Of a DNA stretch of 64,000 nucleotides, positions 1,148-61,774 are shown piece by piece. Every line of letters starts with the position of its first letter. The first letter of the stretch is position 1. The position numbers were made by a program, and so were the translations under genes. The notes under the pieces were generated by a model. That model saw only the letters and a program-made list of their open reading frames with translations. It was not told where the DNA came from and did not search any database. The stretch comes from Bacteroidales bacterium (GTDB lineage Bacteria; Bacteroidota; Bacteroidia; Bacteroidales; P3), in the NCBI GenBank assembly GCA_024685285.1, contig JAIKVZ010000012.1, positions 1 to 64,000 on the forward strand, read 5' to 3'.

Positions 1148-1231
1148 GGTTAGGTTCGGGTTAAGGTCGGGTTTGGTTCGGGTAAGGGTCTATAGAGACT
1201 ATAGATTCTATAGACTTTATATATTCTATAG
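1148..1231 (+). repeat. Dispersed G-rich array, copy 1, with nTATAGann tail
   Basis: 1148-1190 holds four 11-bp units close to GGTTnAGGTCG. From 1190 a second array with 9-bp period begins: CTATAG at 1190, 1199, 1208 and 1226, and a degenerate unit at 1217. The element lies between gdhA and the convergent gene ending at 1302, G-rich strand in the gdhA sense. Flanking inverted 9-mers (TGAAAACCA at 1089, TGGTATTCA at 1255) may mark wider boundaries. The rest of the 992-1301 gap holds the gdhA terminator, a weak GGGCT/AGCCC hairpin at 1106-1127, and no gene. Confidence 0.85.
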
Positions 1232-1301
1232 TAGACCCTATCGTCTCTTATGTCTGGTATTCAGTGGTTTAATTTCTTAGTACAAGCAGGCACATGCTCT
1301 G

Positions 1302-1937
1302 CTACCGGCTGCTGTAGTGCTCAGGGAAAAGCCTAAGCATTGATGTGTCTTTCTTCATATGTTCGAGCAGCGAGTCGGTGATGGATATGTTATAGGTCCA
1401 AATCACAGAATCCCCGATTGTTTCTGAGAGGTTGTGCCTCTCGAAAAGGGCAATCAGTGAGGGATCCTTATCCGTGTAACTATGCGACACTTCTACCGAT
1501 GCAGTGTCGTCAATATTATAAAAAACCAATCCTGCAAAAGTGACAGAATATAAAGTTGAGCATTTCCTGTCAGCGCCTACCCTGATTTCCTCTTCACAGG
1601 AAAACAGATTGATAGAATCCGTTTGTGGCGGTATGCAAAATCTAAAGTATGGATTGTTCCTGGAGGAAGCGTGGATTTGGATATTGTCGCATAGGACAGT
1701 ATCTTTATAATACCAAGAATGGATTTGTTTGTTTCCGCAGAATGTATGGACTGGCCCAGAGTCCTCACCCAGTATTACGCGGATGTATTCATAGTCCATA
1801 ACTATGGTTCTGTCTGTGAGGTTTCTGATTTTGTAGTTGTACACTGCATCACAGGTGTGCGATTTCGCACAAGACGTTACTAACAGCATCAAAGATGTTG
1901 CAAGTATGGATAATGTTACAACCCGGTTAAAGTTCAT
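1302..1937 (-). CDS. Putative lipoprotein of unknown function
   Basis: Not recognised as a named family. The ATG at 1937 is chosen because it places a short charged end (MNFNR) directly before a hydrophobic helix and the lipobox LLVTSC at residues 18-23, so export and lipid anchoring are likely. The mature part is about 190 residues, rich in beta-type sequence, with several cysteines. The start overlaps the end of the upstream gene by 11 bases, which suggests translational coupling in one operon with the metallopeptidase-like genes. Base composition is clearly more AT-rich than the housekeeping neighbours, hinting at acquired DNA. Confidence 0.7.
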   Translation of the reverse strand: MNFNRVVTLSILATSLMLLVTSCAKSHTCDAVYNYKIRNLTDRTIVMDYEYIRVILGEDSGPVHTFCGNKQIHSWYYKDTVLCDNIQIHASSRNNPYFRFCIPPQTDSINLFSCEEEIRVGADRKCSTLYSVTFAGLVFYNIDDTASVEVSHSYTDKDPSLIALFERHNLSETIGDSVIWTYNISITDSLLEHMKKDTSMLRLFPEHYSSR

Positions 1938-2898
1938 GTCGTGCAAATATTGAATCTATGGCATGTGCGTTTTGCGAGGAAACTCTATTTTTCATATTGT
2001 TCTTAAACTCGCTTATTGAGGTGGCGTTCAAACTACGGTATATACTGTCGAAAGATATATATTGTTTGTCAGGCCCTGTGATTTTTCGCAATATACCTGG
2101 TTTGAACCAATATTTGGTGGTATCGCAAGTGGTAATCTCTCTATAATCTGAGGTGTCATTTGGTCTATGCCATACATTCTTCATGTTTTCGTTATAAAAG
2201 ACAATTTCAGAGAAGAATCCCCACATTTCGCCCACACCAATGTATCCGCAAAAATCTCCGTTAGGGGTCCCGTAAGTACCTGTACTGTTGTTCAGTACGG
2301 CGGCCATACAGAAATGGAACCAGTAGTCGCCATTCACTAATACAGAGTGTGAAGCATGGGAAAGTTCATGAAATACCGTAGCATATATTCTATGTGTAGA
2401 ATCGGAATTATTGAATAGGATTATATCTGGAACTGTCCTGTCAAAGAATAGCAAGCCTCCAGTTCCAAGGTAAATAAAGAATGACTGATATGTATTGTAC
2501 TCACATGAGGCGCAACGCCAGTGCCGTAACATTGGCGCGGAACCATTCCAATCAGTATTTGGGAAGTTAAATATAGCAATACGTAGGTTTGTAGGCGCTC
2601 GGTATATGCCTAAGGAAGGACATAGAACATGGCTATATATGCTGGTAGCATTGTTCACAGTTGCCCAGAACCATGCGGGCGATTGTTGGTCTATATCATA
2701 AGAGTAACCGGTGTTTGACTGATTTCCCAAAGACAATGAGGCGGGAGCCAGACAGTAGTGATTGCCCCATATTTGAAATCCTGATGGTTTGTTATGAAAG
2801 TAAACTGTATAATTTACTTTAGTGAGAAATTTTTTTGAAGTAGAGTAATATCCTGATGTGTCGGTATAAACTCTCCGCACACGCACCAAAGTGTTCAT
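1927..2898 (-). CDS. Zinc-metallopeptidase-like protein, probably the 3' half of a frameshifted gene
   Basis: Contains VFHELSHASH, an HExxH-type motif followed by a third histidine; many Bacteroidota lipoproteins carry the form IHELAHASH. No signal peptide is present here. The ATG at 2898 overlaps the previous stop as ATGA, and an in-frame GTG lies at 2910. The N-terminal segment (LVRVRRVYTDTSGYY) looks like the continuation of a carboxypeptidase-regulatory-like beta domain that begins in the preceding frame. Alone it would lack export. I read 1927-3524 as one gene broken by a -1/+2 shift near 2910, either real or a sequencing error; coupled translation of two ORFs is the alternative. AT-rich like its neighbours. 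Confidence 0.7.
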   Translation of the reverse strand: MNTLVRVRRVYTDTSGYYSTSKKFLTKVNYTVYFHNKPSGFQIWGNHYCLAPASLSLGNQSNTGYSYDIDQQSPAWFWATVNNATSIYSHVLCPSLGIYRAPTNLRIAIFNFPNTDWNGSAPMLRHWRCASCEYNTYQSFFIYLGTGGLLFFDRTVPDIILFNNSDSTHRIYATVFHELSHASHSVLVNGDYWFHFCMAAVLNNSTGTYGTPNGDFCGYIGVGEMWGFFSEIVFYNENMKNVWHRPNDTSDYREITTCDTTKYWFKPGILRKITGPDKQYISFDSIYRSLNATSISEFKNNMKNRVSSQNAHAIDSIFARHEL

Positions 2899-3524
2899 GA
2901 CAATCTGCACATTTTACGGTTCGTAAACGTGTTTTGTACCCTTATGCGGCCAGAAGGTGCATGCCCAAGTTTTGTTGTTGGCATTTCAATTAGATTGCCT
3001 GTAAGATCAAGAGACTCGTGTTCCAATATTTCCAGATCTGGATTGTTGTCAATATCTGGAATATAGCAGTATTCCAGTATTTTATAGTCATTGATAATTC
3101 TATAGGGATAGTTTTTGGGTACAACAGCGTATAGGCATTGGCGAAGAGTTGTGTCGGGATAGTATACTCCTGGCGAGACAATTTCATAATCTAGTGGGTA
3201 TGGGAAAACGTCGATGGTGCTATCCTCTATAAGTATATCTATTTCCTCAGCACTTTCCGGGTAAAAGCATATATAGATGTGTGTTGTATCTATATTTATT
3301 GAGTCTATCATGTTAGATTTCCTCAAATTTCGATAGGCATTTCTCATGTTGTCAACTGAGTATGAGTTGTCAAGTTGATTTCCTAAAACCATCACACCAT
3401 CTGTGGAGGTCCCCCTTGACAGGGTCCTGTATGGGATGTCATTGTTCTGCAAGTCTTCTCTTTTGCACGATGTAATCGTGCAAAAGAACGAAATTATTAA
3501 TATTATAATAACCTTTGCTCTCAT
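2895..3524 (-). CDS. Lipoprotein, probably the 5' half of a frameshifted metallopeptidase-like gene
   Basis: The ATG at 3524 gives MRAKVIIILIISFFCTITSC, a signal peptide with lipobox TITSC. A longer upstream start would lie before the predicted promoter at 3539-3546. The body (209 residues) is acidic and ends with PSGRIRVQNTFTNRK, a motif that in related Bacteroidota lipoproteins leads into a domain continuing to the HExxH region. Here that continuation is found in the other frame of the next ORF. The encoded product would be a surface or periplasmic lipoprotein of roughly 530 residues if the frame were restored. Function unknown; peptidase activity is inferred only from the downstream HELSH. 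Confidence 0.7.
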   Translation of the reverse strand: MRAKVIIILIISFFCTITSCKREDLQNNDIPYRTLSRGTSTDGVMVLGNQLDNSYSVDNMRNAYRNLRKSNMIDSINIDTTHIYICFYPESAEEIDILIEDSTIDVFPYPLDYEIVSPGVYYPDTTLRQCLYAVVPKNYPYRIINDYKILEYCYIPDIDNNPDLEILEHESLDLTGNLIEMPTTKLGHAPSGRIRVQNTFTNRKMCRLS

Positions 3525-3538
3525 AGTTATTTTTTTTG

Positions 3539-6455: not shown

Positions 6456-7748
6456 TCAGTAGCTGACGGTGACGCGCAGTGCGTGTTGTGTGCTGTTGGT
6501 GAGACGTACAGGGTTGGCGGTGCGGAGGCCTACGAGCCAAAGCAGTTGACCTTGGGCATCGCATAGCACACGCACCCTCTCTTTTTCGAAAAGGTTGAGT
6601 TTGGCATCAGTGAGCATATCGCTCACCAATCGCGTCCCGTTCATACCGAAAGGCACAAAGCGATCGGCCTCGCGCCAGGGGCGCAGGTTGAGGGGCTGCT
6701 GTAGGCGGTCGGCATCGAAGTAGGCTGTTAGAGACGAGCAGTGCAGGTCGGCTGCGGTTACTTTGGAAGGGGCCACGTCGACAATCTCAATCTGTGGCTC
6801 TGGCCATACGGCATTGAGTGGCTCTATGACGAGGTATGTGCGGTCGCGCAAGAGCCTATGGGTGGGTGAGACGAATATCTTGCCAGGCTGGGTGTTGAGA
6901 GAGGTTTCGATGTCGGCCACAGTTGCCGCGTTGAAACCGTAGGGACGCAGTAACTCGAAGAGCAGTGTGCGGCGTGGATTGAGTGTGATGAGTTCTGCTA
7001 TGGGCAGTGTGTCGGTGTTGCTGTTGGTGCACAACAGGTTCTGCCGTAGTTTGTCTACGGAGGTGCGGTATACGGTCTCGGTGTCGGCCAAATGCTGCAT
7101 GGCGCGTTGCATAGTGTTGTCGATGTTAGGCGAGATAGTTCGCAGCAGTGGCATGAGTTCGAGCCGTATGCGGTTTCGCAGGTACAAGGGCTGGTTGTTG
7201 GTGTAGTCGGTTACGTAGTTAATGTTGTGGCGCTTTGAATAGTCTGCAATCTCGGTTCTGGAGAAGCAGAGCATAGGCCTGACCACATAGCCTGAGCGGC
7301 AGGTTATGCCATGCAGGCCAGCGATGCCTGTGCCGCGAATGAGGTTGATGAAGAATGTCTCGGCCGAGTCATCTCTGTGGTGGGCTGTGGCTATGGCGGC
7401 GAAACAGTATTGCTGCCGTAGCCGCTCGAAGAAATCGTAACGCAGATTGCGTGCAGCCTCCTCAATAGAAAGATGGTTCTGGGTGGCGTATGCTTTGGTG
7501 TCGTAGTTCTCGGTGTAGAACGCAACGCCGTATTTGTGGGCCATCTCCTTTACAAACTGTTGATCACGGTCGCAATCGCCTGGCCTCAGGTTGAAGTTGC
7601 AGTGGGCTATGGCAAAGCGGTAGCTGGCACTGTGCATAAGATGGCACATAGCGCTTGAGTCAATGCCTCCACTAACGGCTAGCAACACCTCGTCGGAAGG
7701 TCCGAAGAGGTGTTGCTCTGTTATGTGTTGCTTGAAGCGTTGCAGCAT
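6456..7748 (-). CDS. tilS: tRNA(Ile)-lysidine synthase
   Basis: Modifies C34 of the CAU-anticodon tRNA-Ile with lysine using ATP, so it reads AUA instead of AUG; essential in most bacteria. The N-terminal PP-loop AVSGGIDSSAMCHLM is present at about residues 24-38, followed by AHHRDDSAETFF and NLIRGTGIAGLHG, both typical of TilS. The C-terminal part (MLTDAKLNLFEK...LLWLVGLR) matches the TilS C-terminal domain. At 430 residues it is full length. Its ATG shares one base with the TAA of the giant T9SS gene upstream (TAATG), so its translation may be coupled to that 12-kb message. Confidence 0.95.
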   Translation of the reverse strand: MLQRFKQHITEQHLFGPSDEVLLAVSGGIDSSAMCHLMHSASYRFAIAHCNFNLRPGDCDRDQQFVKEMAHKYGVAFYTENYDTKAYATQNHLSIEEAARNLRYDFFERLRQQYCFAAIATAHHRDDSAETFFINLIRGTGIAGLHGITCRSGYVVRPMLCFSRTEIADYSKRHNINYVTDYTNNQPLYLRNRIRLELMPLLRTISPNIDNTMQRAMQHLADTETVYRTSVDKLRQNLLCTNSNTDTLPIAELITLNPRRTLLFELLRPYGFNAATVADIETSLNTQPGKIFVSPTHRLLRDRTYLVIEPLNAVWPEPQIEIVDVAPSKVTAADLHCSSLTAYFDADRLQQPLNLRPWREADRFVPFGMNGTRLVSDMLTDAKLNLFEKERVRVLCDAQGQLLWLVGLRTANPVRLTNSTQHALRVTVSY

Positions 7749-10700
7749 TAATAGATGACCATTTTGCGCATTAGGCGTTCACCGCCGAACTCTACTGCAT
7801 AGTAGTAGATACCAGTGGCATAGCTGTCCATTGAGAGGGCTATGGTATGGCGGCCAGCTGCATAGAATGTGCTGCTGTGGCTCACGATGTGACCCATAAC
7901 ATCGATGATGTAGAATTTGACCTGTCCAGCGTTGGGGATGGCGAACTCAATGTTGGTCTCGTTGTGGAACGGGTTGGGATAATTCTGTTCAAGCACGAAC
8001 TCGCCCTCGTCGGTAGAGGGGATGTCATCAATGTAGTTGGCTACTTCAATTAGCGTGGTCTGGTTGTTGGCCTCATTGACATCGCCCGCCATTGCCACTG
8101 ATGCGGAGCCTTCGTAGATGCGGTCCCAATTCTTTGGTATTCGGTCATCGAAGTCTAGCAAGTGGACTTGGTTTGGAATGAGATTCTCGACGGTGACGGT
8201 CTTTGTGATGGTTTGATCGTTTATGGTAGCAGAGAAAGTTATCTGTTTGTCATGTATCGCCGCTGAACCGCGGTTTACGTACTGTGCTTTGACCACGCAG
8301 TCGTTGTTGCGGTTCTCAATGACGTACACTTTCTCTAAAGCGATGTCAACGAATTGTTCTGTACGCATACGAGTTGTGTCGTTTTTGCGGTTGTTGTCAT
8401 CGGCTATCGAAACGAAGGCGGTGATACTGTCGAGCAGGGAGCGGTCGGTGAATGTATGGTGAAAACGCCAGTAGCCAGAGGAGAGGGCTGCCAAGGGGAC
8501 ATTGTTGTGGTAGGTTTCGCGTATAATGTTGTTGGTGTCGCTGCCGAAGTACATACCCACTTCAAAATCGTTCACGCCACGTGCACCCACGTTGTCTATC
8601 ATCAGTGTCACCGAGTAGTTGCTGCCGCTGGTTGTGTCTATCACTATAGAGTTGGCTTTGAGATCCACGATGGTAGTTATGCCGTATAATATGGTGTTGA
8701 TGGTGTCGTTATATGGGTAGTCGTCCAAAGAGTAGCTGGAGTATGCGATGGCAGACATTTGGCCGAGCGAAGCACGGACTTTTTTCTTGAAAGTGTAATT
8801 GAAGTACTCGCGATAGCGCAAGGGTCGGCCGAGCAGGCTCCGAATGTTGACGGTCTCACGCACAGGAGGCTCGCCATTGAACTCGTAGACCAAGTCTGTG
8901 AGATAGATTGAGTCGAGGCCGAAGTTATAGAAGCGTACGGCTATCTCCAAAGAGTCGCCAGCAATGACACGGCTTTCAGGCAACAAGAATTCAATCATTT
9001 CCAAATCGTGTTCTAGTGGAGCTAAGTAGAAGTGGCTGCACACGGTGTCGTTCTCCCAGTATATGTCAGTGTTGACATTAGTATAAGCGCAGATGGAGAA
9101 GGTGTCGGGGAAGTTGCTTGTAACGATGAATGGAGCATCGAATTTGAATAGGTCTTCTCCGTCTGGTGGGAGCAGACCGTTGTATGTACCAATCTTTGAA
9201 AGGTTACTGCCGAAAGGTTTATAAGCAAGGTTGAAGGAGCGGATAGTGTCGTTGCCGAAGTTGTGCACAATGACCTCTGGTCGGATGGTCTGTCCGTACT
9301 TAGGTTCGGTGGGGTAGGTAATAGCTACCACTCCGACATCAACAGCTCGGCGGGCATGGCCTATACTGAACTCGTCGATTGCTGCACCTTCGCCGAATTT
9401 CTCGTTGAGGGTGTTTCCTGGGTTGGTCTCGTATACAAAACGGAACTGAGCCATCTCCGGGAAGTTACCGCCTACTTTGGTGGATGTGAGTGAGAAATAA
9501 ACCAATTCGTATTCAGTATTGGTGCCATCAAAAAATCTTACAGGTTTTTTATCGTCCTCTGGCGTGTTGTTGTACCAGTGCTGAAGCGAGTCGTGCTCAA
9601 CTTTTGACCAGAAGCCGTCGTAATTCCAGTACTCCATATACATACGGCTACCTTCGTTGATATTACGGCGCAGCCAGAAGAATATGGTATCAGGACGTAC
9701 CTGTGAGATGTCGAATACTGGTGAGTATAGCACGCTCTTGCTGCCATAGTATCCAGTTACAATATCAGGTGCCGAGAGATGGGTTACCCACGCATTAGAG
9801 TCAGAATAAGGTGCAGAGATACGTTGCTTGGTCGGGTAGCCGCGCTGCCAGAAGTTGGTGTCAAGGCGAGTATGGCCTTTAGGAGCAAACCAATTGTTCT
9901 CAAGGTCGAAGTTGTCCTCCATTGCCAACACTAGCACTTTAGGCCTGAATATTTCATGCCACAGAATGTTGTTGCTGCTGTCGGCATCGTCTTCGAGCAT
10001 TGCTTTGATGGTGAGGCGCGTAATGCCTTCTGGCATGGTGTCGGTAGGAAGTGTAACCAAAGCGGTTTGCCCGGAGTTTAGTGTACCATGCCAGGTATAG
10101 ATGAAGGTGGTGTCGGCTCGCAATGTGTCTTCGAAGACATAGTTACACTCAAATTGTACTAAGCTGAGAGTCTGTTTACCTTTGTTTGAGAATGCAAATT
10201 TGGGCGCAATCACAGAGTCTCTCTTGATAATGTTGTGATGCGGAGCTACCATACGGTTGAGGGCGACATCATAGTCCGGAAGGGTTTCTGGGTCGTCGAC
10301 AAATACCAACAGATCTAAAATGTGTGCCTCACTAAATTCGGTATATCTTATTTCAGGGCCGCTTGTGGTGTTGAATATTCGGTGGTAGAGATAGTTCGGG
10401 CGTATAGTTCTTGTGGTGTCATCCAAAAGAACGATTCTCATGCGTGTCATTCCAAGTGAGGCGGCTTTGGGCACTGTGATTACGGTGCCAAAATTGCCAA
10501 TGTTGGATGTTGCATGGCCCCATGCCACGACCTCATCGGCGAATGGCGGATTGTCGCCATAAAGCACGTATTTGTTGGCGGTGTCTATATCGCATTCGAA
10601 ATTGCCGTCACGGTTCCAGTCTATAAATACGGCCAGGCCTCCTATTTTTCTATTGTCGCTCGAGGTTGTGTTATTGGCCACACCTATTATTAGAGAGTCT

Positions 10701-13700
10701 GTCATGCCGCGAGTTACGTGCAGAGGCGGTATGTCATAGCGACCATCGGCCATATAGCGCACGGGTCGGTTGAAGTATGTGCGTTGCAGTGGGGGCAATT
10801 CGAGGTCTCTGGTGCCAAAAGATACTCTTGTTATGCTGAGTTCTGACGGTTCAACTGGCTTGAAGCGGTCGTCGTTGTAAGCTACTTCGTTGTCGAGTGT
10901 CTTGAACTGTTTGTCTTCTCGCATAGTGTCGTTGCGTTTGGTCATGTCACCTGGCAAACTTGTGTATGCTGTTATGCTGAAAGTCTGTTCTTTGGTGGGC
11001 GACGTGGCTACTGCACCTTTGAGGTTGGCCAAGGTTTTGAATTTGTAGTAGAGTGTGTCGCTTGGTCCAAGCACGCCCTCGTATGTCTCAGTAACCAGTT
11101 GATATGGATTTTTGCGGTTGGTTCCTTTACTGTTCATGAGTACATAAGTGATGGGTATGCTGGTTTGGGGCTGGGTGCCATAGTTGACAATGCGCACTCT
11201 CACCGTGTCATTCTCCATATAGACGCGTCCGCCTTCAGGCGATAGTATGGCTTCTATTGCAACATCTTTCTCTACTTTTGGATTGACTCGTACATGAACT
11301 GGTGAGAATGGGCTCTCGCAACCTGTTTGGGTGTTGCGGCATATCAGATAGTATGTGGAATCGTGGAAATACTGTGGGGTGTTGCTCCATCTGAACGAGA
11401 GCAGGGCATTATTCGTCTTTGGCCAGAAGTATGCTGTTGAGGTATCGGGCGCTCGATACCAGCGTACCACATAGTTGCGTTCTGCTTGCTCAGCGGTGAC
11501 TGCTCCCCATGTGCCGTAAGCTAAGTTGGTGTCGTGACCGACAGGGGCTGTTGGAGTGAAGTCGGCTTTGCAGCGGGCATATTCGGTAGTGTCGTTCTCT
11601 GGGTGCAGATCGGGTGGGTAACTTACCCATGTGCGTATATCGACTTGAATACCTGCTTGAGGTGCATTTGGACCAGTAAGGCCTGTGGGGTACAGATTGG
11701 CACGAGTTGCTAGCATAATAGTGTCGGTATCGCCAACGCTGAGGGCTTTCTTAAATCGGTAGGATTCACTGTTGACAGCCGGTATTGTAGGTACAGTTAT
11801 GCCAGTGGTGTGCATCTTGGTGTCGAAACCGAATTCCACTTCTGCACCTGACGGTATGGCACGTTTGCCGCGATTGGTAACTACAATGGATATGGGATTC
11901 TGGTCTCGGTAGCAGTCGCGATATATGTCATGTATCACAGTGCTGACGGCTTGCAGGTTATATGCTGGCGAGAGGTAGAATCTGGAGTCACGCTCGTTGT
12001 TCTCAGGAGCTTCATCGCTGCTTGTGTTGATATAGACGCGCACATACTGTGTGTCAAGTACACCAATGGTACATTTGAGTTTGACAGTACCGTGTATAAA
12101 CGTTTGTGGCGAGAAGGTGTTAATGACCTGTGTTGTGGAAGCAATTGATGTTCCCACCACTTCGGCGTACCACGTCACGTTGCGCTCGGTTGAATTGCCA
12201 TTGTTGTAGAAAGTGACATTTACTGTAATCTCGTCACCCTCAACATCGTTGGGGTTGGATATAGACTCTGGCCATACAGGATTGGTAATCTCCACGATAG
12301 ATATATCGTGGGTGCGCTTGGGCATTTCGAAAGCTCCGATAGAAGGCTTGGGCATATAGGGCCGTGCGTTGCCGTCAATATCGACGGTTACATCGGAGTT
12401 ATAGAGTGCTTTCTCGCTCATATTGCCTACCACAAGGTGCAAGTCGTCTTCGCCTGCAAAATAGGGTCGCTCAACAACCGATTGAGACTCGGTTCCATAG
12501 CGTGCTTGCAGGGTATCGAGCAGGCCATTGGTGGGCGCTGTTTTATTGAAATATATAATCTTGTTGTTGGCACTGTCAGCGTTGGAATAGTAGGCGTTGT
12601 AGTTTGAGGTTATGATACTGGTATCGCTTTCAACGTAGTAGGCATAGCCCTCGGCGGTATTGGACATGATGTTGTTGACCACTTGCATACGGCTGCAGGC
12701 CTTGCCAACGAATAGTGCTTGAGAGGTGATAATCTGGCGTGTCATGCCGTCAACCGACATGGAGTTGTAGTAAATGTTGATGTTTGCCGAGCTATCTATG
12801 TACATTGCCGTGGGGCTTGGACGGCTACCACCTTGGCTGACAACACCTACCATATTGTTGACAATGGTAACAGGTTGACGTTGTGTGCCTTTGATATTGC
12901 TCAAACGTATGCCGACCTTACTCGTTAGCCATGCGTCAGTTACGTATACATGGTTCGCTTCAAGTTCGGTCTTACCTGCGGTAGAGTATAGCCAAATGCC
13001 GTTGAGCGGACGACGGTTGGCCTTGGCAGAAGAGCGGACGGTATCGTATTTAATGACCACGTCGGCAACTTCTTCAAGGCGAATACCCATACGCAGGAAG
13101 TCGATAATCTTGCTATTGGTGACAGTTATGCCGCGTATCCCTGCGCTTCCGGGTACGTTAGCTATGGCACAGTAGCCACTGTCGATAACGGTATGAGTAA
13201 TGTTGAGCCCCACCACGTTGTTGCCAATCACTACAGACGAGGCCAAAGCGCGTTGCACATTATCGGTGGAAGGGGTGACATCTGATTTGCTAACTCTGAT
13301 ATTGCAGTGGGTGAAGGAGACATTGGTTGATGAGTCAATCACTACTGCATTAGCATATGAGTCTGCATTGGCCGTACGATTGGCACCGATTGATTTTATT
13401 CCGATGCCATCAAACACTATGCTTTCGGAATTGGACACTCGTAACACATAGTTACTGTCTGCCACGGGTGTGTGTTGTATTGATACTCCGTCGCCAGCGG
13501 CACGGAATGTTATTGTGTTGATGGAATCGTTGCCTTGAATGTTGTTGATAAGGACTTGCTCGCGATAGATGTCGGGCATTACGTCGAAAGTAACTGCTCC
13601 GCCAATACCCACTGCGTTCATTGTGTCTATGGCTTGCGAGAAAGTGGCAAAATCTTGGTTGGTGCCTATGGTGTAGTTACCACCACAGAATTTCACTTTG

Positions 13701-16700
13701 AATACGGCTTCGATGGTGTCGTTGGCAGAGATGGTATCGCCAGCAACTATGATGCAAGCTTTGACATGATGACGGCCAGGAGAAAGCGGAGTTGTAGTGA
13801 GGGCTACGTTGGCTATCTGTGCCGAGGCAAGGTTGGCATCGGTTATTTGCTTGGTTTGCCATTCTTCGCCGTCAATGGAGTAGCGCAGAGTGTAATCGTT
13901 AAGTGTCTTGCTGCCGAGATTGCGCACATTGACGTTGACAACAGAGTTGCTGCATGAGAGCATTTCTATAGGTCGCTCGTTGGTTGGCCACATCACTGTG
14001 GCGTCAGTGTCAGGTATACCGGTAAGGGTTACGTAGATTGGTGATGTTTTGCTCTCGCAAGAAAAAGCCATCATCTCAAACATTATGTCTGGTCGCGATG
14101 TAGCCAGTGCTGTACCTTCAGCATCAGAACCGTATAGCGAAGGTGTGGAGCGTGTGGCGGTTGCATATAGTGAACGGTTTTGGGTCGAGGTGTTGTAATA
14201 GATTGAAACGCCCGATGTGTTACGGGTATTTATATGCCAGTCCTGAATAACAATGTTCGACAGACCGTCCCATTCAAAAGGTGTACTGAACTCGTAGCGA
14301 ACCCAACCCTGGTGTGTTGTTGTGGACATGTCCATGTTGCTGTCTACATACACATCCGACACAGGTTTCCAGTCGCTCTTGTTCTTGAATACCGAGTCTG
14401 TTGTTGAGCCTATGCTTATGGCAAAGTTCTGATAGGTATTGGTCTTTGAATAAAGAATTTCGTCTAACTTGTATGATATGGCCGTAATATCGCCTGGCAA
14501 CAGCCCCATTGCGTAGAGTTCTTGGGCAGTGATGATATATTGCTCACGTGCTTGCACGTTGTAGGTCTGCCAGGGGTTAGGGTAGCGTGGTTCACGGCTC
14601 TGGCTCACAGTAGATGTGTCGCCAAGCAGTCCGTGAGAAAGACGCAGTACCTGCTGTGATACATAGAAAGTGTCGTCTATATAGAGATATGGCGAGGTGT
14701 AGGTGGGCCCAACACCGACCATTGTCATGCTCCTGTCGTACCACACTGGTTTTGCATTGGGGTTGTTGGGCAGTTGCATGGTGAGTTGAGTAGCGTAGTC
14801 AATAGTGTCGTACTCTTCTATCTCGGGGGCAGGCAGTGTGAAGCGAGATATTGCAGAGGCCTTTACGGTGTCGTTCTTGCGCACGAGGTCACCGTTTACA
14901 GAGTCGACCCATACAATAATATTAAATGTAGTGTCGTCGTTACGCTTCATATTGAGCAGGTGGGAGAAAGTATGTGCATACTCTTCGCGCACCTCTATTC
15001 CTTCGGCAATGGTGTCTTGATAGGTCTCGTTGCCTGTGGAATAGTTGATAAACACGGTGTCTGACTTTTGTATACCGAAGTTGCTCAGCATGAGTGATAC
15101 GGGTTCGTTGCCTAAATCGCAACCTTCTTTGACCTCAAGATTATACAACTCTATGTCTGACAGGGGGACGTTAATCAAGTCAATATGGAATCTACCGAGA
15201 TCGCCGCGGCATCCATTCTCGGCGTACAAGAATAAGTTGGGGTCGGATACGCCTGGAGTCAGACGGCGGCTGTTGGAAGCCATAACCCAGTAACTGGCGG
15301 TATTCGACGGAGTGGAGTTGGGGTCAGGCCACGAGTCGCGTATAATACCCGCAGGTGCACGCGTTGGCATGGTTATGCCACCACCGGACCAGATGTAGTT
15401 AGGTATCTGGAGTGATGTCCATGCGCTACGTGATGTTATGCCGTTCATAGCAACAGCATCGTCAACCTCGCCGTTGTGGTAGTATATAAAACCAATTTCG
15501 GTTTTAATTTGCATTTGCGGTATCTCGTTGTTGTTGCCGGTTATGAGGGCGGTTGGGTCGTCGTTGGCTGAAGAACGAGTCCACTGCACCACAATGCTTT
15601 GACCTGGCTGCACGGTGATATCGGGGAATGAATAGGTCTTACCGTTGTAATCGTTATTGCTCGAAACTACGTCCATCCTGTCTCCACGCATAGAGGCTGG
15701 TGCAGAACCTACGTTGGTCATCATGACCGAAGTTTGGGTACTGGAACTGAAATAAGACGGCAGACTGAGCGGGGCGCCATCGGTGCTGGTTGATTTACGA
15801 ATCTGCACCTGGGTTATACGCATCAACGGTATGTTACGTTTTTGCTCGGCGTAGTAAGTCACAGTATCGCGCAACGGAGGGGTCGTATAAGTGGTACCTA
15901 TGTAAATGGGCTCCTCGTCATCGGGTGTAGTATACCAGTATATTTCAGAGTTGACTTTGTCGCCAGAATTGTAGACGTGTCTGGGCCACTGTAATATGCC
16001 ACGGTTGGCGGTGAGTTGAGCGGTATTGCCGTATTCTACGGTGAGATTACTACCTGTTGGAGCGGTAGCGTGGTAGTGGCTTACTATGGTGAAATTGTTG
16101 GTATCGTTGGTGGGATTGGGGTCGAGGGTTGATGCAAGCCACACTTTTAGGTGGTGTACCGAGTCAGCCTGAAATGCCGGTAACACATTAAGCAGTATGC
16201 CAGTAGCGCAGGCTATGGAGTCTTCGGCTCCAACGCTGGTTGAGACGTTGAACGAGTGGGTGGGCCCTTCATTGAGCGAGCAGTATAGTGTGAGTGTGCC
16301 GCCCGATGTGTCGACATCGTAGGTTCCAACGCCTATATTGCGCAGCATGGGCACAAATTCAACCCTGTCAGGGGCGGAACAGTATTCAAGGAGTGGTGCA
16401 CTGAGTGACGATACAGTGAAATCGTACAGTAGTGTGGCAAACTCGAAAGCGCCTATACAGGGTGCAACGGTATCGCGCGGGTTGCCCAAGAGGTCAGTTG
16501 TTGCTGTACTCACCGGCATGCCTTTGCCTTTGATTGCACGGTTGTAGGTGCGCAGATCGGCATGGGTGGCGTTGAGGAAGTCGGGCTTGAATGATATGGA
16601 GTTGCTGTCGGCTGTGACTTGTGCGGCCCATTGCTCCAAGTTGTTACAGGCTACTATGGCATTGTAGCGGTTGAGTATGGTGCCGCCGGTGTAGTATAGG

Positions 16701-19726: not shown

Positions 19727-19757
19727 ATTCAGTATGTTATCTTGTATATTCAATGCC

Positions 19758-19784
19758 TTGGAGCGCGTTAGGGTAGCACTCCAA
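19758..19784 (-). other. 5'-UTR hairpin of the giant T9SS gene
   Basis: TTGGAGTGC pairs with GCGCTCCAA (one T-G pair) around a 9-base loop, immediately after the expected transcription start. It could stabilise or regulate the long mRNA; function is inferred. Confidence 0.45.
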
Positions 19785-19792
19785 ATGCAAAG

Positions 19793-19800
19793 CAAATATA
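19793..19800 (-). promoter_or_regulatory. Promoter -7 box for the giant T9SS gene
   Basis: TATATTTG then C on the minus strand; TTAGCCA lies at about the -33 spacing. It predicts a 5' UTR of about 60 bases. Confidence 0.6.
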
Positions 19801-43439: not shown

Positions 43440-43452
43440 CCACGCCCGACCA

Positions 43453-49043: not shown

Positions 49044-49074
49044 TCCGACCTCAACCCGACCTTAACCCGACCTT
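49044..49074 (-). repeat. Dispersed G-rich array, copy 5
   Basis: Three 11-bp units, G-rich on the minus strand, between the TolC-like gene and thyA, both on the plus strand. This is the only copy not in the sense orientation of an upstream gene; no tail and no clear hairpin. Confidence 0.8.
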
Positions 49075-49147
49075 GGTGTTATGTTGGAGTGTGGATTTTT
49101 TTTCATGGCTGTACAATTTTTTTTCTGAGTCGGCGTTATTATGATGT

Positions 49148-49942
49148 ATGAAGCAGTATTTGGATTTAGTACAACATATTCTTGACCACGGTACGCCGCG
49201 TCAGGACCGCACCGGCACCGGCACCATAGGCGTGTTCGGCTATCAGATGAGGTTCCCGCTTCAGGACGGCTTCCCTTTGCTCACTACCAAGAAACTCCAT
49301 CTGCGCTCCATCATCTACGAGCTGCTGTGGTTTCTGCGGGGCGACACTAATATAGGATACCTCAAGGAACACGGTGTTTCGATATGGGACGAGTGGGCAG
49401 ACCCCGATGGCAACCTCGGGCCCGTCTACGGAAGCCAGTGGCGCTCGTGGCCCGACGGCCAGGGTGGCACCATCGACCAGATTGCCAACGTAGTGGCAGA
49501 GATTAAAAACAACCCCTTCAGCCGCCGCCTATTGGTCACCGCATGGAACCCTGCAGAGCAGTCCCTCATGGCACTGCCCCCGTGCCACTGCCTCTTCCAG
49601 TTCTATGTCGATGGCGGCCGACTCAGCTGCCAGCTCTACCAGCGCAGCGCCGATGTGTTCCTCGGTGTACCCTTCAACATAGCCAGTTATGCCCTCCTCA
49701 CTATGATGATGGCCCAGGTGTGCGACCTCGAGCCGGGCGACTTTGTTCACACGTTGGGCGACGCCCATATATACTCCAACCATATTGACCAGTGCCATCT
49801 GCAGTTGGGCCGCGACCCCAGGCCCCTGCCCACCATGCGTATCAATCCCGCTGTTAAAGATATTTTTGGGTTCGACTATGCCGACTTCACCCTCGAAGGC
49901 TATAATCCACACCCCCACATTAAAGGCCAGGTGAGCGTGTGA
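49148..49942 (+). CDS. thyA: Thymidylate synthase
   Basis: 264 residues, full length. Makes dTMP from dUMP with methylene-tetrahydrofolate. [17 protein letters not shown] at the start, [19 protein letters not shown], active-site region [15 protein letters not shown] with the catalytic Cys, [16 protein letters not shown] and the end [19 protein letters not shown] are all present. First of three co-directional genes; manC follows after 25 bases. No dihydrofolate reductase gene is beside it. Confidence 0.98.
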
Positions 49943-51087: not shown

Positions 51088-52491
51088 ATGAAACACTACG
51101 AAATAAAACACCTGTTGAAAGAAGATGTGAGCGCCCTGCTGGGCACCACAATATGTGTCAAAGGCTGGGTGCGCACCAAGCGCGGCAACAAGAACGTGGC
51201 TTTCCTGGCCGTCAACGACGGCTCTATCATCCACAACATCCAGATCGTTGCCGACCCCACGAAGTTCGAAGAGGAGTTGAAACGCATTACCACCGGAGCC
51301 TGCATAGGCGTCGAGGGCAAACTGGTTGAGAGCCAGGGCTCGGGCCAGGCCGTCGAAGTGCAGGCCGAGAAAATCGTCGTCTATGGCGAGGCCGACCCCA
51401 ATACCTACCCCCTGCAGAAGAAAGGCCACAGCATGGAGTTCCTGCGCGAGATAGGCCACTTGCGGCTCCGCACCAACACTTTCGGTGCCGTCATGCGTCT
51501 GCGCCACAACATGGCCATGGCCATCCACACTTTCTTCCACGAGCGTGGCTTCTTCTACTTCCACACCCCCCTCATCACTGCAAGCGACTGCGAGGGTGCC
51601 GGCGAGATGTTCCATGTCTCGACCCTCGACCCAGAGAACCCGCCTCGCAGGGAGGACGGCACGATAGACTGGGAGCAGGACTTCTTTGGCAAGTTCACCG
51701 CCCTCACCGTCAGCGGCCAACTCGAAGGCGAACTCGGAGCCACCTCGCTGGGCAAAATCTACACTTTCGGCCCTACCTTCCGTGCCGAGAACAGCAACAC
51801 TCCGCGCCACCTGGCCGAGTTCTGGATGATTGAGCCCGAGATGGCCTTCTACCAGCTTGACGAACTCACCGCCCTCGAGGAGGAGTTCATCAAATACTGC
51901 GTCCGCTGGGCCTTAGACCACTGCATGGACGACCTCGAGTTCCTCAACAAAATGATTGACAATGGTCTGATTGAACGTTTGAAGAGCGTTATCGACACCG
52001 ACTTCGTCCGTCTGCCATACACCGAGGGTATCAAGATACTCGAGGAGGCCGTCGCCAAGGGTCATAAATTTGAATTCCCCGTCAGCTGGGGAGTCGATCT
52101 GGCCTCGGAGCATGAGCGCTACCTGGTGGAACAGCATTTCAAGAAGCCCGTCATCATGATTGACTACCCGAAGGAAATCAAGGCTTTCTACATGAAGCAG
52201 AACGACGACGGCAAGACTGTGCAGGGTACCGACGTTCTCTTCCCGCAGATTGGCGAGATTATTGGTGGTAGTGTCCGCGAGGAGAATTACGATAAACTGA
52301 TGAATCGTATCAACGAGCTCAACATCCCGATGAAGGACATGTGGTGGTACCTCGACACTCGCCGTTTCGGCACCTGTCCCCACGCCGGCTTCGGCCTCGG
52401 TTTCGAGCGCCTGATGCTCTTCGTCACCGGCATGGCCAACATCCGCGATGTCATTCCCTTCCCCCGCACCCCCAAGACCGCCGAGTTCTAA
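51088..52491 (+). CDS. asnS: Asparagine-tRNA ligase
   Basis: 467 residues, full length class II synthetase. N-terminal OB fold ([25 protein letters not shown]), motif 2 region [26 protein letters not shown] and motif 3 [29 protein letters not shown]. The N-E-F residues of motif 2 fit AsnRS rather than AspRS. Ends with a strong terminator, followed by G-rich copy 6. Confidence 0.97.
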
Positions 52492-52598: not shown

Positions 52599-52634
52599 AG
52601 GTTAGGTTCGGGTTGAGGTCGGGTAGGGGTCGGA
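52599..52634 (+). repeat. Dispersed G-rich array, copy 6
   Basis: Three 11-bp units, G-rich strand in the asnS sense, 56 bases after its terminator. No TATAG tail. Confidence 0.82.
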
Positions 52635-52709: not shown

Positions 52710-53687
52710 TTAGATGAAGAACAAGCTCACTCCGGCAACACTGATTATGGCACCGAGAACCTCGCGCAGCGTCACTCGCTGGTGGAAGAGCACAGCGGCC
52801 GGGGCAATGATGAGCACGGGGGTTAGTGCGAAGAGGGTCTGTGCTATGCCGGTGGAGGTATAGCGTGTGGCTAAGAGCGAGGCGCTGACTCCTATGAAAG
52901 GCCCGAACAGGGTTGAACCGACCGTGCACCACATGGCCTTGCGGTCGGCGATGGCGTGGCCGAGACGTTCGCGCCAGTCGGGGTGCAGCAGCCTCAGCAT
53001 AAGCATGAAGCCCGCTATGCCCATGGTGGCACGTATCATGGTGGCCGCAAAAGGTATGCCAAGGTCGAGCGGCAGCGGCAGCAATGCGTCGGGCAATGCC
53101 TTTGTGGGGTCTATGCCGGCGTTGGCGACGGCCGAGCCATAGTGTTCGAGCCCCCTCTTGCTCAGTACCAACCCCACGCCTTGGCATATCCCGGCCACAG
53201 TGGCGTAGGCTATGCCGCGCCGTGGCAGCGAGGTGTGCAGCCGGTTGTCGCCAGGCTGCGGCTTGGCCAAGATGGACAGGGCTATGCCTCCGAGGGTTAC
53301 CACCATGCCAGCTATGGCTGTGGGCCTCATCTGCTCGCCCAACAGCAATCGGCCTGTAATGGCTGCCGCCGGTGCCGAGAGGGTCATGAATAGCTGCCCG
53401 AAACGCGAGCCGATGTGTATATAGCCCTGCATCAGACAGTAGTCGCCCACCACGTAGCCCACCGCACCGCTCAACAGCAGCCAAAGCCATGTCGAGGCAT
53501 CGGCATAGCGGGGGTAGGGGGTACCCATGGTGAGCCAAAGGGTGGCTGCCAGCAGCACGAGCGACAAGGCCATGCGCACCGTGTTGAACGGCAGCGAGCC
53601 CATACGTTTCGATGCCACCTCGGCAAAGAGGGCGGTGACGGTCCATAGCAGGGCCACGAAGAGCGATATTATTTCTCCTGCAAACAT
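52710..53687 (-). CDS. EamA/DMT-family transporter
   Basis: 325 residues, about ten membrane helices in two EamA repeats (residues about 5-140 and 165-320). [21 protein letters not shown] and [21 protein letters not shown], each ending a repeat, show the duplicated fold. The family exports or imports metabolites such as amino acids; substrate unknown. Convergent with asnS. Confidence 0.88.
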
Positions 53688-59353: not shown

Positions 59354-60628
59354 ATGATTGAATATAGTGAGCACATATTAGACAACGGCCTCACCGTTAT
59401 CACACACACCGACCGCACCACACCACTTGCGGCCGTCAATGTGCTCTATGGCGTGGGCGCCCGCAACGAGCAGCCAGACCTCACCGGCATGGCGCACCTG
59501 CTCGAACACCTTATGTTTAGCGGCACGCCGCGCCACCCCGACCACGATGCTGAGGTGAGCCGTATGGGCGGCGAGGCCAACGCCTTTACCAACAACGACT
59601 TCACCAACTACTACCTTACCGTGCCTGCCGCCGCAGTGGAGGATGCCCTTGACCTGGAGCTCGACCGCATGACCTGTCTTGATGTCTCCGAGCGCGCCCT
59701 CGAAGTGCAACGCCAGGTGGTTACCGAGGAATACAAGCAGCGCTACCTTGGTCAGCCTTACGGCGACGTGTGGCTGTTGCTGCGCAAACTCTGTTACCAG
59801 ACACACCCCTACCGCTGGGCCACCATCGGAGCCGATATAGCGCATGTGCAACGCGCCACCCTCGACCAGGTGCGCAGCTTCTACACCGCGCACTACCGCC
59901 CCGACAACGCCGTGCTGGCTGTGTGCGGCAACATCGACGCCGACCGCGTGCTCGCCCTCGCCGACCGTTTCAGCCCTGCCGCCGTGCCGGTGCCAGCTGC
60001 CACACAGACACTGCCGTCAGAGCCGCCGCAGGCCGTGCGCCGCACACTTACCGTGCACCGCGATGTGCCGGCCAACGCCATATACAAAGCCTATCACATG
60101 GGGCCGCGATTGAGCTCCGACTACTACGCCTGCGACCTGATGACCGACATATTGGCCAGCGGCCATTCGTCGCGACTACACGACCGCTTGGTGCGCCGCG
60201 ACGGCATTTTCAGCGAGGCCAACGCCTACATCACCGCCGACCTCGACCCGGGTTTGCTCGTGGTGACAGGCCGCCTGGCCGACGGCGTGAGCCTCGAGCG
60301 CGCCGAGCAGGCCATCGACGCCGAATTGGCAGAGCTGGCTACCACTGGCGTTACCGACTACGAGCTGGCCAAGGTGCAAAACCGCTATGAGTCGACCTTC
60401 GTCTTCTCGCAATACAAGGCCGCCGACCGTGCCTACTCGCTCTGCTACTACAACCGGATTGGCCACACCGACTGGGTCAACAACGAGCCGCAAAACTACC
60501 GCCAAATAACGGCCGACACCATGCGCCAAACCGCCGCCCGTCTCATCGTGCCGGCCAACGAGTGTGTGCTCTACTACCTCAAAGACAACGACACTTCAAC
60601 CCACAACACCATAACAACCCAACCATGA
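59354..60628 (+). CDS. M16-family zinc peptidase
   Basis: 424 residues, the size of one PqqL/MPP-type unit. The inverted zinc site HLLEH (in AHLLEHLMFSGT) and the downstream glutamate in VVTEEYKQR are intact, so it should be active; M16 enzymes often pair with an inactive partner, which is not seen here. No signal peptide is visible. Stop overlaps the channel gene start (ATGA). Confidence 0.93.
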   Translation: MIEYSEHILDNGLTVITHTDRTTPLAAVNVLYGVGARNEQPDLTGMAHLLEHLMFSGTPRHPDHDAEVSRMGGEANAFTNNDFTNYYLTVPAAAVEDALDLELDRMTCLDVSERALEVQRQVVTEEYKQRYLGQPYGDVWLLLRKLCYQTHPYRWATIGADIAHVQRATLDQVRSFYTAHYRPDNAVLAVCGNIDADRVLALADRFSPAAVPVPAATQTLPSEPPQAVRRTLTVHRDVPANAIYKAYHMGPRLSSDYYACDLMTDILASGHSSRLHDRLVRRDGIFSEANAYITADLDPGLLVVTGRLADGVSLERAEQAIDAELAELATTGVTDYELAKVQNRYESTFVFSQYKAADRAYSLCYYNRIGHTDWVNNEPQNYRQITADTMRQTAARLIVPANECVLYYLKDNDTSTHNTITTQP

Positions 60629-61587
60629 AACTCTGGAACCGCATAACCGATACCTTCTGGCTCGTGTGGGGCCGTCTGCGCGAGGTCAACTACAAGGCTA
60701 TGGCCAAGCGCATAATCAACGCCATTGGCAACGTGATGCACACGATTCTCTTCGAGTGGCTGTTGCCGAAGCGCTACCGCAACATTACCAAGCGCCAAAT
60801 CTACGAAATAATATTCAAGGCCGACACCCCTGCAGGCAAGCGCTTCGACGTGTGGCTCCTTGTGCTGATAGTGCTCAACATCATACTGCTCATGATCGAC
60901 AGTATGCTCGACATGAGCAGCACCATCATCGTAGGGGCCCACAGCTCGGCCATGTGGTGGGTTATGAAGGCCTTGGAGTGGATGTTCACACTGCTCTTCA
61001 CTTTTGAGTACTACCTGCGTATCTACTGCCTCAAGCACCCCTGGAAATACGTTTTCTCGTTCTGGGGCTTCATCGACTTCCTCTCCATATTCCCTGCCTA
61101 CCTCAGCCTCATAGTGCCTGCCACCCAGGCCCTCACCGTGCTGCGTCTGCTCAGGGTGCTGCGCATATTCCGCATCTTCAAGCTCGAGCGTTTCCAGCAG
61201 GAGGCGGGGCGTCTCTTGGCGGCATTGCGCAACAGCGCCGTCAAGATACTTATCTTTATGCTTTTTGTGCTGGTGGCTGCCATCATACTCGGCACCATCA
61301 TCTACGCCATCGAGGGCGACCGCAACCCGGCCCTGCAGAGCATTCCGCAAGGTATCTACTGGGCTGTGGTGACCATGACCACCGTAGGCTACGGCGACGT
61401 GGCCCCGGTTACACCAGCGGGCCGTTTCTTGGCAGTGATAGTCATGCTGTTAGGCTATTCCATAATAGCTGTGCCCACAGGCATAGTGGCCGGCGAGGTT
61501 GTCGTGCAACACCGCCAGCCGAGGCAGAGGCAGCGCAAGGCCGCCATCGAGCATGAATATGACGACGAGGCCGACGCCCTCAACTAA
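60625..61587 (+). CDS. Voltage-gated potassium channel
   Basis: 320 residues, six membrane segments. S4 carries regularly spaced arginines (LRLLRVLRIFRIFKLERF), and the pore has the filter TTVGYGD. A cytoplasmic N-terminus of about 75 residues and a short charged tail (EHEYDDEADALN) flank the channel. Kv-like bacterial channels conduct K+ and set membrane potential. Last gene of the operon; a strong hairpin follows. Confidence 0.93.
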   Translation: MKLWNRITDTFWLVWGRLREVNYKAMAKRIINAIGNVMHTILFEWLLPKRYRNITKRQIYEIIFKADTPAGKRFDVWLLVLIVLNIILLMIDSMLDMSSTIIVGAHSSAMWWVMKALEWMFTLLFTFEYYLRIYCLKHPWKYVFSFWGFIDFLSIFPAYLSLIVPATQALTVLRLLRVLRIFRIFKLERFQQEAGRLLAALRNSAVKILIFMLFVLVAAIILGTIIYAIEGDRNPALQSIPQGIYWAVVTMTTVGYGDVAPVTPAGRFLAVIVMLLGYSIIAVPTGIVAGEVVVQHRQPRQRQRKAAIEHEYDDEADALN

Positions 61588-61618
61588 GTATTAACCCCCG
61601 ACCCGCAGAAAATAGCTA

Positions 61619-61655
61619 AAAGCACAAGTCGCTGAGAATCAGCGGCTTGTGCTTT
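61619..61655 (+). terminator. Terminator of the channel operon
   Basis: Seventeen-bp stem AAAGCACAAGTCGCTGA with its near complement (one G-T pair), loop GAA, then a short T-run. Confidence 0.9.
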
Positions 61656-61689
61656 TAAATATAACCCACTGAATTACAGTGTGGTAGAT

Positions 61690-61774
61690 GGGTTAGGTTC
61701 GGGTTAAGGTCGGGTTGGGGTCGGGTAGGGGTTTATAGCGACTATAGATTATATAGATTCTATAGTATATATAG
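61690..61774 (+). repeat. Dispersed G-rich array, copy 7, with nTATAGann tail
   Basis: Four 11-bp units (61690-61732), then five 9-bp units with TATAG at 61733, 61742, 61751, 61760 and 61769. Almost the same order and sequence as copy 1, 60 kb away. Confidence 0.9.

Follow-up and report, generated by a model that had tools for sequence, protein, structure and literature searches.

Even spacing of 11-bp repeat arrays in a gut Bacteroidales genome suggests a new kind of site that helps to organise the chromosome

Introduction

Chi, KOPS, and matS are dispersed motifs read by chromosome maintenance proteins, and Chi and KOPS are polar; unlike the repeats described here, none of them forms 11-bp arrays that recur at even distances of 8.5 to 9 kb. 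The uptake sequences of Pasteurellaceae and Neisseriaceae (USS and DUS) resemble the arrays in being short, genome-wide, and species specific and in occurring in both genes and gaps. However, uptake sequences are not known to be built as obligatory arrays of three to four units or as several families per genome, whereas the present arrays are tandem 11-bp repeats, occur once per ~8.5 to 9 kb, are mostly intergenic, belong to multiple families per genome, and are found in a genome (G029) without ComEC or DprA. Even spacing has been described for uptake sequences also (PMC1939737). REP and BIME palindromes are described as intergenic, present in many copies, and often located between unidirectional or convergent genes (PMC3733652). 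The arrays are likewise intergenic and multicopy, but they differ from REP/RAYT systems in their direct 11-bp units, even spacing, and in-gene copies.

Within the Bacteroidales, the BrickBuilt MITE of Porphyromonas gingivalis is reported to have a 23-nt tandem unit, 19 copies, and IS-like terminal repeats, and as described there it shares with the arrays the tandem units, the flanking inverted parts, and the intergenic location (PMC4596501). The arrays differ from it in having in-gene copies and 82 sites in 710 kb, and identity with BrickBuilt was rejected on the basis of their pitch, which is 11 bp and not 23 nt. In yeast, cohesin sites are spaced at ~10 kb. Yeast cohesin, a complex that organises chromosomes, collects in the gaps of convergent genes, which are places of positive supercoil accumulation (PMC8360656). 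Unlike the arrays, these are sites of a eukaryotic complex, and no sequence array marks them.

Results

The window (the whole stretch of 64,000 nucleotides analysed, from contig JAIKVZ010000012.1) contains all seven arrays at the places given by the original prediction. The pattern GGTTNAGGTCGGGTTNAGGTC, with up to three mismatches, matched it 15 times, compared to a mean of 0.01 in 100 shuffled sequences. The intergenic location that had been claimed applies to the seven named arrays but not to an eighth, which lies inside a gene. On the G-rich strand, the units follow the order GGTTAGGTTCG, GGTTAAGGTCG, and GGTTGAGGTCG or GGTTGACATCG, often followed by GGTAGGGGTCG. This strand is the plus strand at arrays 1148, 52600, and 61691 and the minus strand at arrays 19971, 26472, 39339, and 49067. 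The features are as follows.

1073..1147, plus: palindrome region preceding array 1 (5' half of element 1)
1148..1190, plus: array 1, units GGTTAGGTTCG GGTTAAGGTCG GGTTTGGTTCG GGTAAGGGTC; gap with plus-strand ORF 65..991 on one side and minus-strand ORFs from 1302 on the other
1189..1236, plus: tail of 9-bp TATAG-type repeats following array 1 (tandem repeat finder)
19939..19971, minus: array 2, three units; tandem gap between minus-strand ORFs 20055..21053 and 7748..19795
19985..20029, minus: element 2 hairpin (inverted repeat), between the array and the end of gene 20055..21053
26429..26472, minus: array 3, four units; between minus-strand ORFs 26552..27745 and 24648..26300
26485..26531, minus: element 3 hairpin
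39286..39339, minus: array 4, four units and a TATAG-like end; convergent gap between plus-strand ORF 37573..39216 and minus-strand ORF 39404..40150
44168..44198, plus: eighth array, in frame in the RND-adaptor-like ORF 43273..44481; scores 13.9 bits against the array profile
49045..49077, minus: array 5, a short copy without flanking palindromes; tandem gap between plus-strand ORFs 47609..49030 and 49148..49942
52600..52632, plus: array 6, three units; convergent gap between plus-strand ORF 51088..52491 and minus-strand ORF 52710..53687
61618..61656, plus: element 7 hairpin, with CTGAGAATCAG at its centre
61691..61733, plus: array 7, four units; convergent gap between plus-strand ORF 60562..61587 and minus-strand ORF 61852..63897
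61743..61788, plus: tail of 9-bp TATAG-type repeats following array 7

The eighth array is ~4.9 kb from the neighbouring array on each side, and the largest of all the unfilled intervals lies in this window, from 1163 to 19954. The 5' half of element 3 recurs almost unchanged at three other loci (C12 52932, C19 18176, and C19 46827). One of nine matches scored as genic (26444, in array 3) falls in a false small ORF and is intergenic.

The seven arrays are neither the only copies nor equally common inside genes. The whole genome contained 227 + 245 matches with at most three mismatches, versus 2 + 2 for the reversed pattern. In 710,604 sampled bases, strict matches occupied 71 of 592 called gaps, and only 6 of 78 strict matches were genic; the 82 array sites in these 710 kb include those in genes. 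In this genome and in the congener RGIG5037, most arrays lie in convergent gaps. In this genome, they were present in 43 of 68 convergent but only 2 of 66 divergent gaps, and in RGIG5037 in 26 of 35 convergent but only 3 of 35 divergent gaps. In this genome, all 33 convergent gaps of 150 to 300 bp held an array, and none of the 13 gaps under 60 bp did. Where gene order is conserved between the two genomes, the one common convergent pair has an array in both, while arrays were found in none of the 79 tandem and 4 divergent gene pairs in common. Array orientation, judged against the local GC skew in place of the replication direction, was mixed (45:27 and 15:22), and a polar motif of the Chi/KOPS type was rejected on this measure.

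In the sampled parts of the chromosome, arrays occur about once per 8.5 kb, and their intervals are more even than gap types would predict. The interval CV was 0.443 in this genome and 0.413 in RGIG5037, versus 0.846 and 0.822 under a gap-type-matched null, and intervals below 4 kb made up 3.2% and 0%, versus 27.1% and 24.0%. For each genome, none of 4,000 simulations was as extreme as the observation, which rejects the idea that the spacing merely echoes the positions of convergent gaps. Arrays in tandem or divergent gaps were located far from convergent ones: the median distance in this genome was 8.9 kb (n = 28), whereas the 205 empty gaps had a median of 4.0 kb (p 6e-6), and in RGIG5037 it was 10.4 kb (n = 11), versus 3.7 kb for empty gaps (p 7e-5). 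Conversely, empty convergent gaps were 2.7 kb from another array (n = 12) in this genome, versus 8.1 kb (p 2e-5), and 3.5 kb (n = 4) in RGIG5037, versus 7.8 kb (p 9e-4).

Arrays were also found inside genes. At a threshold of at least 10 bits, there were 10 in this genome and 7 in RGIG5037, versus 0 and 1 with the reversed profile. They lie in frame within ordinary genes and also antisense to murC, and in CoaE the array took the place of a variable stretch with gene length unchanged. The median distance from an in-gene array to the nearest intergenic one was 6.2 kb in this genome (2.7 kb for random genic positions; p 6e-5) and 7.6 kb in RGIG5037 (2.8 kb; p 2e-4). In-gene arrays were present in 5 of 9 intervals longer than 13.5 kb in this genome, versus 2 of 45 intervals of 6 to 13.5 kb, and in RGIG5037 in 4 of 8 versus 1 of 25. 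When intergenic and in-gene arrays were combined, the 42 intervals of RGIG5037 ranged from 4.6 to 14.4 kb (mean, 8.9 kb; CV, 0.303) and the 74 intervals of this genome ranged from 2.6 to 18.8 kb (CV, 0.384); both sets were more regular than hard-core spacing would produce (P 0.004 and at most 0.0001, respectively). With laxer profile cut-offs, the RGIG5037 CV rises to 0.343 and 0.412 as control matches rise to 6 and 12.

The original prediction had proposed a search for the species range, and among 120 genomes of the genus, no more than 3 share the unit. Intergenic arrays with the same 11-bp pitch but other units were identified in four further sampled congeners, and several unrelated unit families coexist per genome. 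No such arrays were found in samples of three other families. In addition, no lag-11 arrays were present in 80 kb of G031 or 100 kb of G018, and the system is therefore not universal in the genus. Close array pairs were significantly avoided in three of the four other species tested, the minimum spacings in these three congeners with other units being 5.2, 4.2, and 5.2 kb (P 0 of 3,000, 0.006, and 0.0013, respectively); in G023 alone the avoidance was not significant (P 0.089). Only three occupied gaps were available for the spacing test in G035. An exclusion of 4 to 5 kb alone suffices for intergenic-array spacing in five of six species, so that evenness beyond avoidance rests on this genome and RGIG5037; even coverage was accordingly rejected as a genus-wide rule, since only these two exceed simple exclusion. 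Convergent gaps were not preferred in G029 (2 of 15 occupied), G012 (3 of 15), G009 (3 of 23), or G023 (1 of 15). The lag detector found no in-gene arrays in G029, G012, or G009, one in G023, and two in G035.

In G029, arrays of two distinct unit families also keep apart from one another (P 0.004). In G012, one gap holds two arrays of different families, and the cross-family value there (P 0.024), which leaves out one same-gap pair, is not relied on. One orthologous gap pair was 167 bp long with an element in G127 and 39 bp long without it in this genome. Among the 30 fetched G127 loci, 16 were classified on one strand: 9 convergent, 5 tandem, and 2 at an edge.

Discussion

The repeat pattern suggests a new kind of site that helps to organise the chromosome. 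Even, self-avoiding placement over several kilobases is expected of a chromosome-structuring sequence, and we tentatively favour the reading that the arrays are putative sites for a chromosome-organising protein, selected for a spacing of roughly 9 kb. Such a protein might act by looping, bridging, or topology from one platform every 8.5 to 9 kb, with units spaced by one turn placing its contacts on one face of the helix. A single bound array would serve several kilobases; another one nearby would then be of no benefit, and long stretches without any would be disfavoured. A preference for sites between converging terminators may arise because they are not traversed by RNA polymerase and because positive supercoiling builds up at such places. 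Coevolution of protein and unit would change the units from species to species but leave the 11-bp pitch and the spacing as they are. The presence of HU/IHF genes in all nine genomes checked, whether array bearing or not, counts against this reading, as do the long unfilled interval in this window, the gap that two arrays share in G012, and the lack of arrays in the sampled DNA of G031 and G018. A more specific version is conceivable, with somewhat greater reserve: in this genus of uncultured Bacteroidales, the arrays would form a chromosome ruler, in which a fast-evolving protein reads arrays of one-helical-turn (11-bp) units and holds the chromosome at points ~9 kb apart, the dialects changing between species and co-occurring yet keeping their distance, and, in regions that lack a free gap, a site being encoded within a gene, which tolerates the resulting peptide. 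A protein-binding ruler would make the domains of bacterial chromosomes accessible through a defined sequence and would provide a fast-evolving pair of protein and DNA site for study. Of the two roles originally suggested, that of a genome-structure element is the better supported, by even spacing and mutual avoidance. The mRNA 3'-end element holds as a description of place, given the occupancy of convergent gaps, but is weak as a function, because tandem gaps, divergent gaps, and genes contain arrays too and because congeners with other units show no convergent preference.

The main rival, which we consider unlikely, is an uptake-like motif: array DNA would be preferentially taken up by transformation and recombined, accumulating by drive at tolerated places, and a fresh copy near an old one would gain nothing. 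The species-specific units, the in-place evolution of the CoaE array, and the even spacing that uptake sequences share would fit this, as would the presence of ComEC and DprA in this genome and RGIG5037 and the mild enrichment of single units in genes of this genome (56 copies, with the reversed unit giving 19; GGTTGAGGTCG, 11 versus 2.1 expected). However, neither protein was found in G029, a 97% complete genome whose arrays are regular and nearly identical. ComEC was found in seven of nine genomes (not in G029 or G009) and DprA in seven of nine (not in G029 or G035), although MAG gaps are possible; since the competence machinery was not found in some array-bearing genomes, the arrays were not assigned to uptake sequences on this basis. 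The tested units also have no copies in 175 to 182 kb of coding DNA of G029, G012, and G023, and several unrelated families per genome and obligatory arrays of three to four units speak against drive. To our knowledge, no uptake sequence system is known in Bacteroidota, and drive would make this the first.

Neither a terminator nor an inserted mobile element is likely to explain the array pattern. It is quite improbable that the arrays are boundaries or bidirectional terminators of convergent units, the hairpin stopping one transcript and the C- or G-rich array stopping or blocking the other. The convergent-gap bias in the two genomes agrees with this, four GGG tracts are present in 55 of 72 elements, and across these 72 elements covariation supports a stem that joins the two palindromes (0.431 paired versus 0.272 expected; z 5.4); covariation was absent from the local flanks and the 3' arm, which pairs no better with its own array than with that of another element (p 0.13). 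Termination would not need spacing, yet convergent gaps near another array stay empty, and neither the arrays within genes, also antisense to murC, nor the lack of convergent preference in G029, G012, G009, and G023 is accounted for. Least probable is a putative nonautonomous mobile element with target immunity, which would insert at gene ends and bar further insertion within a few kilobases. The occupied and empty orthologous gap, the filling of 150- to 300-bp convergent gaps but not of those under 60 bp, the 5' half almost identical at four loci, and mutual avoidance are compatible with such an element, but the CoaE array arose without a length change, other in-frame arrays sit in ordinary genes, and in G029 the avoidance extends to arrays of different families. 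A REP/RAYT origin was rejected, as the Y1 transposase domain (Y1_Tnp; PF01797) was present in neither this genome nor RGIG5037, with the control positive in 5 of 14. Some other cause or a mixture, such as spread by gene conversion with a spacing that arises because close pairs are selected against on other grounds, is improbable too; it would agree with the copying of 5' halves between loci but on its own leaves the in-gene arrays within long intervals unexplained.

Within the searches made, the view that no named repeat resembles the array was borne out: the unit was not found in searches of an open-access library, there was no REP transposase domain, BrickBuilt differs, and no Rfam family matched the arrays at the gathering score, which also rejects a known RNA family. 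Only three tRNAs reach that score, and five weak matches fall below it, some of them beside elements 1 and 2. A plasmid or phage origin was rejected with no exact match of two array patterns in viral_contigs. Curved DNA or a plectoneme pin was not supported either, as predicted curvature was not above that of shuffled sequences in this genome under either model; in RGIG5037 alone it was raised under the wedge model, not under the other. An order-wide meaning of the palindrome TAACNNNCTGAWWWTCAG was also rejected: matches elsewhere outnumber the reversed control, but in four relisted genomes all but one of the matches listed were mismatched, and at scattered positions, so we draw no conclusion from it beyond this genome and RGIG5037, in which an array lies within 150 bp of 21 of 22 and 12 of 13 nongenic matches, respectively.

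Structure of the element

The seven intergenic arrays of G-rich 11-bp units named in the original prediction are present at the positions given, far above chance (15 pattern matches versus 0.01 expected), and are part of a dispersed element of the window's own genome, G000 (227 + 245 matches genome-wide with ≤3 mismatches; 2 + 2 for the reversed control). Across 72 elements sampled from G000, the G-rich strand carries, in order, a palindrome at about -54, the palindrome CTGnnnnTCAG at about -17, and units at 0, 11, 22, and often also 33, followed on the 3' side by a less conserved part with recurring CCGA. In this sample, covariation was detected in the stem between the two palindromes (0.431 paired versus 0.272 expected; z = 5.4) and in the core of the distal palindrome (0.490 versus 0.329 expected; z = 6.9), and the flanks of each palindrome, tested alone, showed none. 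The complementarity of the 3' arm of G000 elements to the array exceeded that of shuffles (P = 2e-18), and its pairing was not better with its own array than with that of another element (P = 0.13). Four G000 loci, including the third window array (26429..26472), share a near-identical 5' half.

Units of a related element in a second species, G016 (MAG RGIG5037), include GGTTAGGGTCG and TATTGAGGTCG, and those of a third, G127, are GGTTCGGGTCG, GGTTTGGTTCG, and GCCTTACATCG. Some elements carry TGTTAAATTTTAACA-like palindromes on both sides (G127 loci L328, L330, L332, and L346; G000 contig C1, ~22113). At 34642-34783 of G016 contig C22, a far longer array consists of at least 12 successive copies of the same unit.

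Distribution among genomes

All genomes compared were MAGs, none a complete chromosome. Of the 120 genomes of the genus, 3 contained the unit pair at ≤1 mismatch (290 matches in G000, 70 in G016, and 25 in G127); among 393 genomes sampled across the order, only G000 itself did. Self-similarity at a fixed lag was also counted in called intergenic DNA, ignoring the letters. At lag 11, this gave 65 places in G000 (1.7 in shuffled DNA), 24 in G016 (0.3), and 31, 5 (in 60 kb), 27, and 23 in genomes G023, G009, G012, and G029, respectively (0 in shuffled DNA for all four). No such place turned up in 100 kb of G018 or in three other families, sampled at 100 kb each. In G007, G010, G021, and G025, individual loci fetched via the palindrome bear 11-bp arrays with other units; there were no arrays in 80 kb of G031 or in 36 kb of a sister genus. 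Thus, the 11-bp pitch, and not the unit itself, is common to several congeners.

Other tandem repeats were also observed. Repeats of a 9-bp TATAG type lie 3' of some G000 arrays (window 1189-1236 and 61743-61788), and gaps of G018 carry 9-bp ATAGA-type arrays in place of 11-bp arrays (locus L295; contig C8, ~20750-20864). A second intergenic class with a 7-bp pitch and some inverted copies occurs in G012 contig C1 (e.g., 56431) and G023 contig C13 (e.g., 44013).

Gap preference and turnover

Genes and gaps were defined with a simple gene caller written for this analysis; around six arrays of other species that were checked, the calls were sensible proteins. The DNA analyzed comprised 710,604 bases of G000 (the window plus seven contigs or contig parts; 35% of an assembly of 2,007,956 bases in 61 contigs, with an estimated contamination of 5.97%) and 400,000 bases of G016 (about 17% of its genome). 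In G000, arrays occupied 43 of the 68 convergent gaps, 26 of the 458 tandem gaps, and 2 of the 66 divergent gaps; the corresponding counts in G016 were 26 of 35, 8 of 251, and 3 of 35. All 33 G000 convergent gaps of 150 to 300 bp were occupied, and none of the 13 under 60 bp. The convergent preference is not common to G029, G012, G009, and G023, in which 2/15, 3/15, 3/23, and 1/15 convergent and 7/15, 5/15, 7/22, and 9/14 divergent gaps, respectively, were occupied.

Orthologous 3' ends share arrays above chance: of the 28 ends that have an array in G000, 13 also have one in G016, compared with 12 of the 109 ends that lack a G000 array (protein identity, 76% at the median). One tandem gap bears an array in G127, where it is 167 bp long, and none in G000, where it is 39 bp long. 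Arrays come and go, with even spacing in both closely measured species, G000 and G016.

Spacing

G000 and G016 arrays are far more regular than if gaps had been picked at random within each gap type. The interval CV was 0.443 in G000 (null, 0.846) and 0.413 in G016 (null, 0.822), values reached in 0 of 4,000 simulations each; the G000 test was post hoc, the regularity having first been spotted by eye, and other species were tested later. Intervals under 4 kb made up 3.2% in G000 (null, 27.1%) and 0% in G016 (null, 24.0%). In both species, the arrays found in tandem or divergent gaps are distant from those in convergent gaps, and convergent gaps without an array have one nearby. The smallest interval was 5.2 kb in G029 (P, 0 of 3,000), 4.2 kb in G012 (P = 0.006), 5.2 kb in G009 (P = 0.0013), and 3.9 kb in G023, where avoidance was not significant (P = 0.089); G035, with three occupied gaps, had too few for the test. 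In G029, two array families that differ in their units come no closer to each other than 6.3 kb (P = 0.004). For five of the six species, exclusion by itself suffices to explain how intergenic arrays are spaced; G000 is evener still (P = 0.002).

Arrays inside genes

A 33-bp profile built from intergenic arrays, and trained on the same genomes that it then scanned, scored 10 arrays within genes of G000 and 7 within genes of G016 at ≥10 bits; the reversed profile gave 0 and 1 matches, respectively. As read from translations, the hosts include FolC, FtsZ, KdtA, an ABC transporter, and MurC (antisense) in G000 and FolC and CoaE in G016; CoaE and FolC are also backed by homologues and Pfam domains. 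Genic arrays lie far from intergenic ones (median distance to the nearest, 6.2 kb versus 2.7 kb for random genic positions in G000, P = 6e-5; 7.6 kb versus 2.8 kb in G016, P = 2e-4). They occur in 5 of 9 G000 intervals over 13.5 kb versus 2 of 45 of 6 to 13.5 kb (Fisher P = 0.0007), and in 4 of 8 versus 1 of 25 in G016 (P = 0.008). Every one of the four G016 intervals over 15 kb held one, as did three of the four such intervals in G000; the remaining interval (window 1163-19954) is mostly one ORF:

7748-19795, 4015-residue ORF, filling most of the largest array-free interval

When genic and intergenic arrays are pooled, G016 has 42 intervals of 4.6 to 14.4 kb (mean, 8.9; CV, 0.303) and G000 has 74 of 2.6 to 18.8 kb (mean, 8.5; CV, 0.384). 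Both are evener than a hard-core model of the same density (G000, P at most 0.0001; G016, P = 0.004 with an exclusion of 4.6 kb, the G016 evenness weakening and control matches increasing at lower profile cutoffs).

The CoaE stretch bearing the array has 34 residues in G016 and 33 to 34 in 119 homologues, so the G016 array evolved in place; G000 CoaE has no array. In FolC, G000 and G016 both have the array within one shared variable loop, which measures 47 and 69 residues in these species and 46 to 85 in 118 others. Coding repeats with 69- and 30-bp units at window positions 35721-36470 and 62194-62404 probably belong to repeat proteins.

Possible function

An element that only inserts would not be expected within CoaE at constant length. 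Termination of transcription gives no reason for mutual avoidance or for location inside genes. With these set aside, two mechanisms are left, a selected organizing site or biased spread of the motif through DNA uptake. The latter is the less likely, since arrays occur in G029, which lacks both ComEC and DprA, and since coding DNA of three species is free of single units; it may still apply to G000 and G016, whose genes show a mild enrichment of single units. One published account places positive supercoils and, in yeast, cohesin at convergent sites (PMC8360656), which the convergent-gap preference in G000 and G016 recalls. Given this likeness, the in-place origin in CoaE, the mutual avoidance, and the weakened case for uptake, we tentatively favor a chromosome ruler, in which a predicted protein would bind the arrays and each site would serve a stretch of DNA and be kept by selection; the protein, its binding, and the phenotype are all putative. 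A ComEC-type competence domain of G000 lies inside the window, at 23828-24637.
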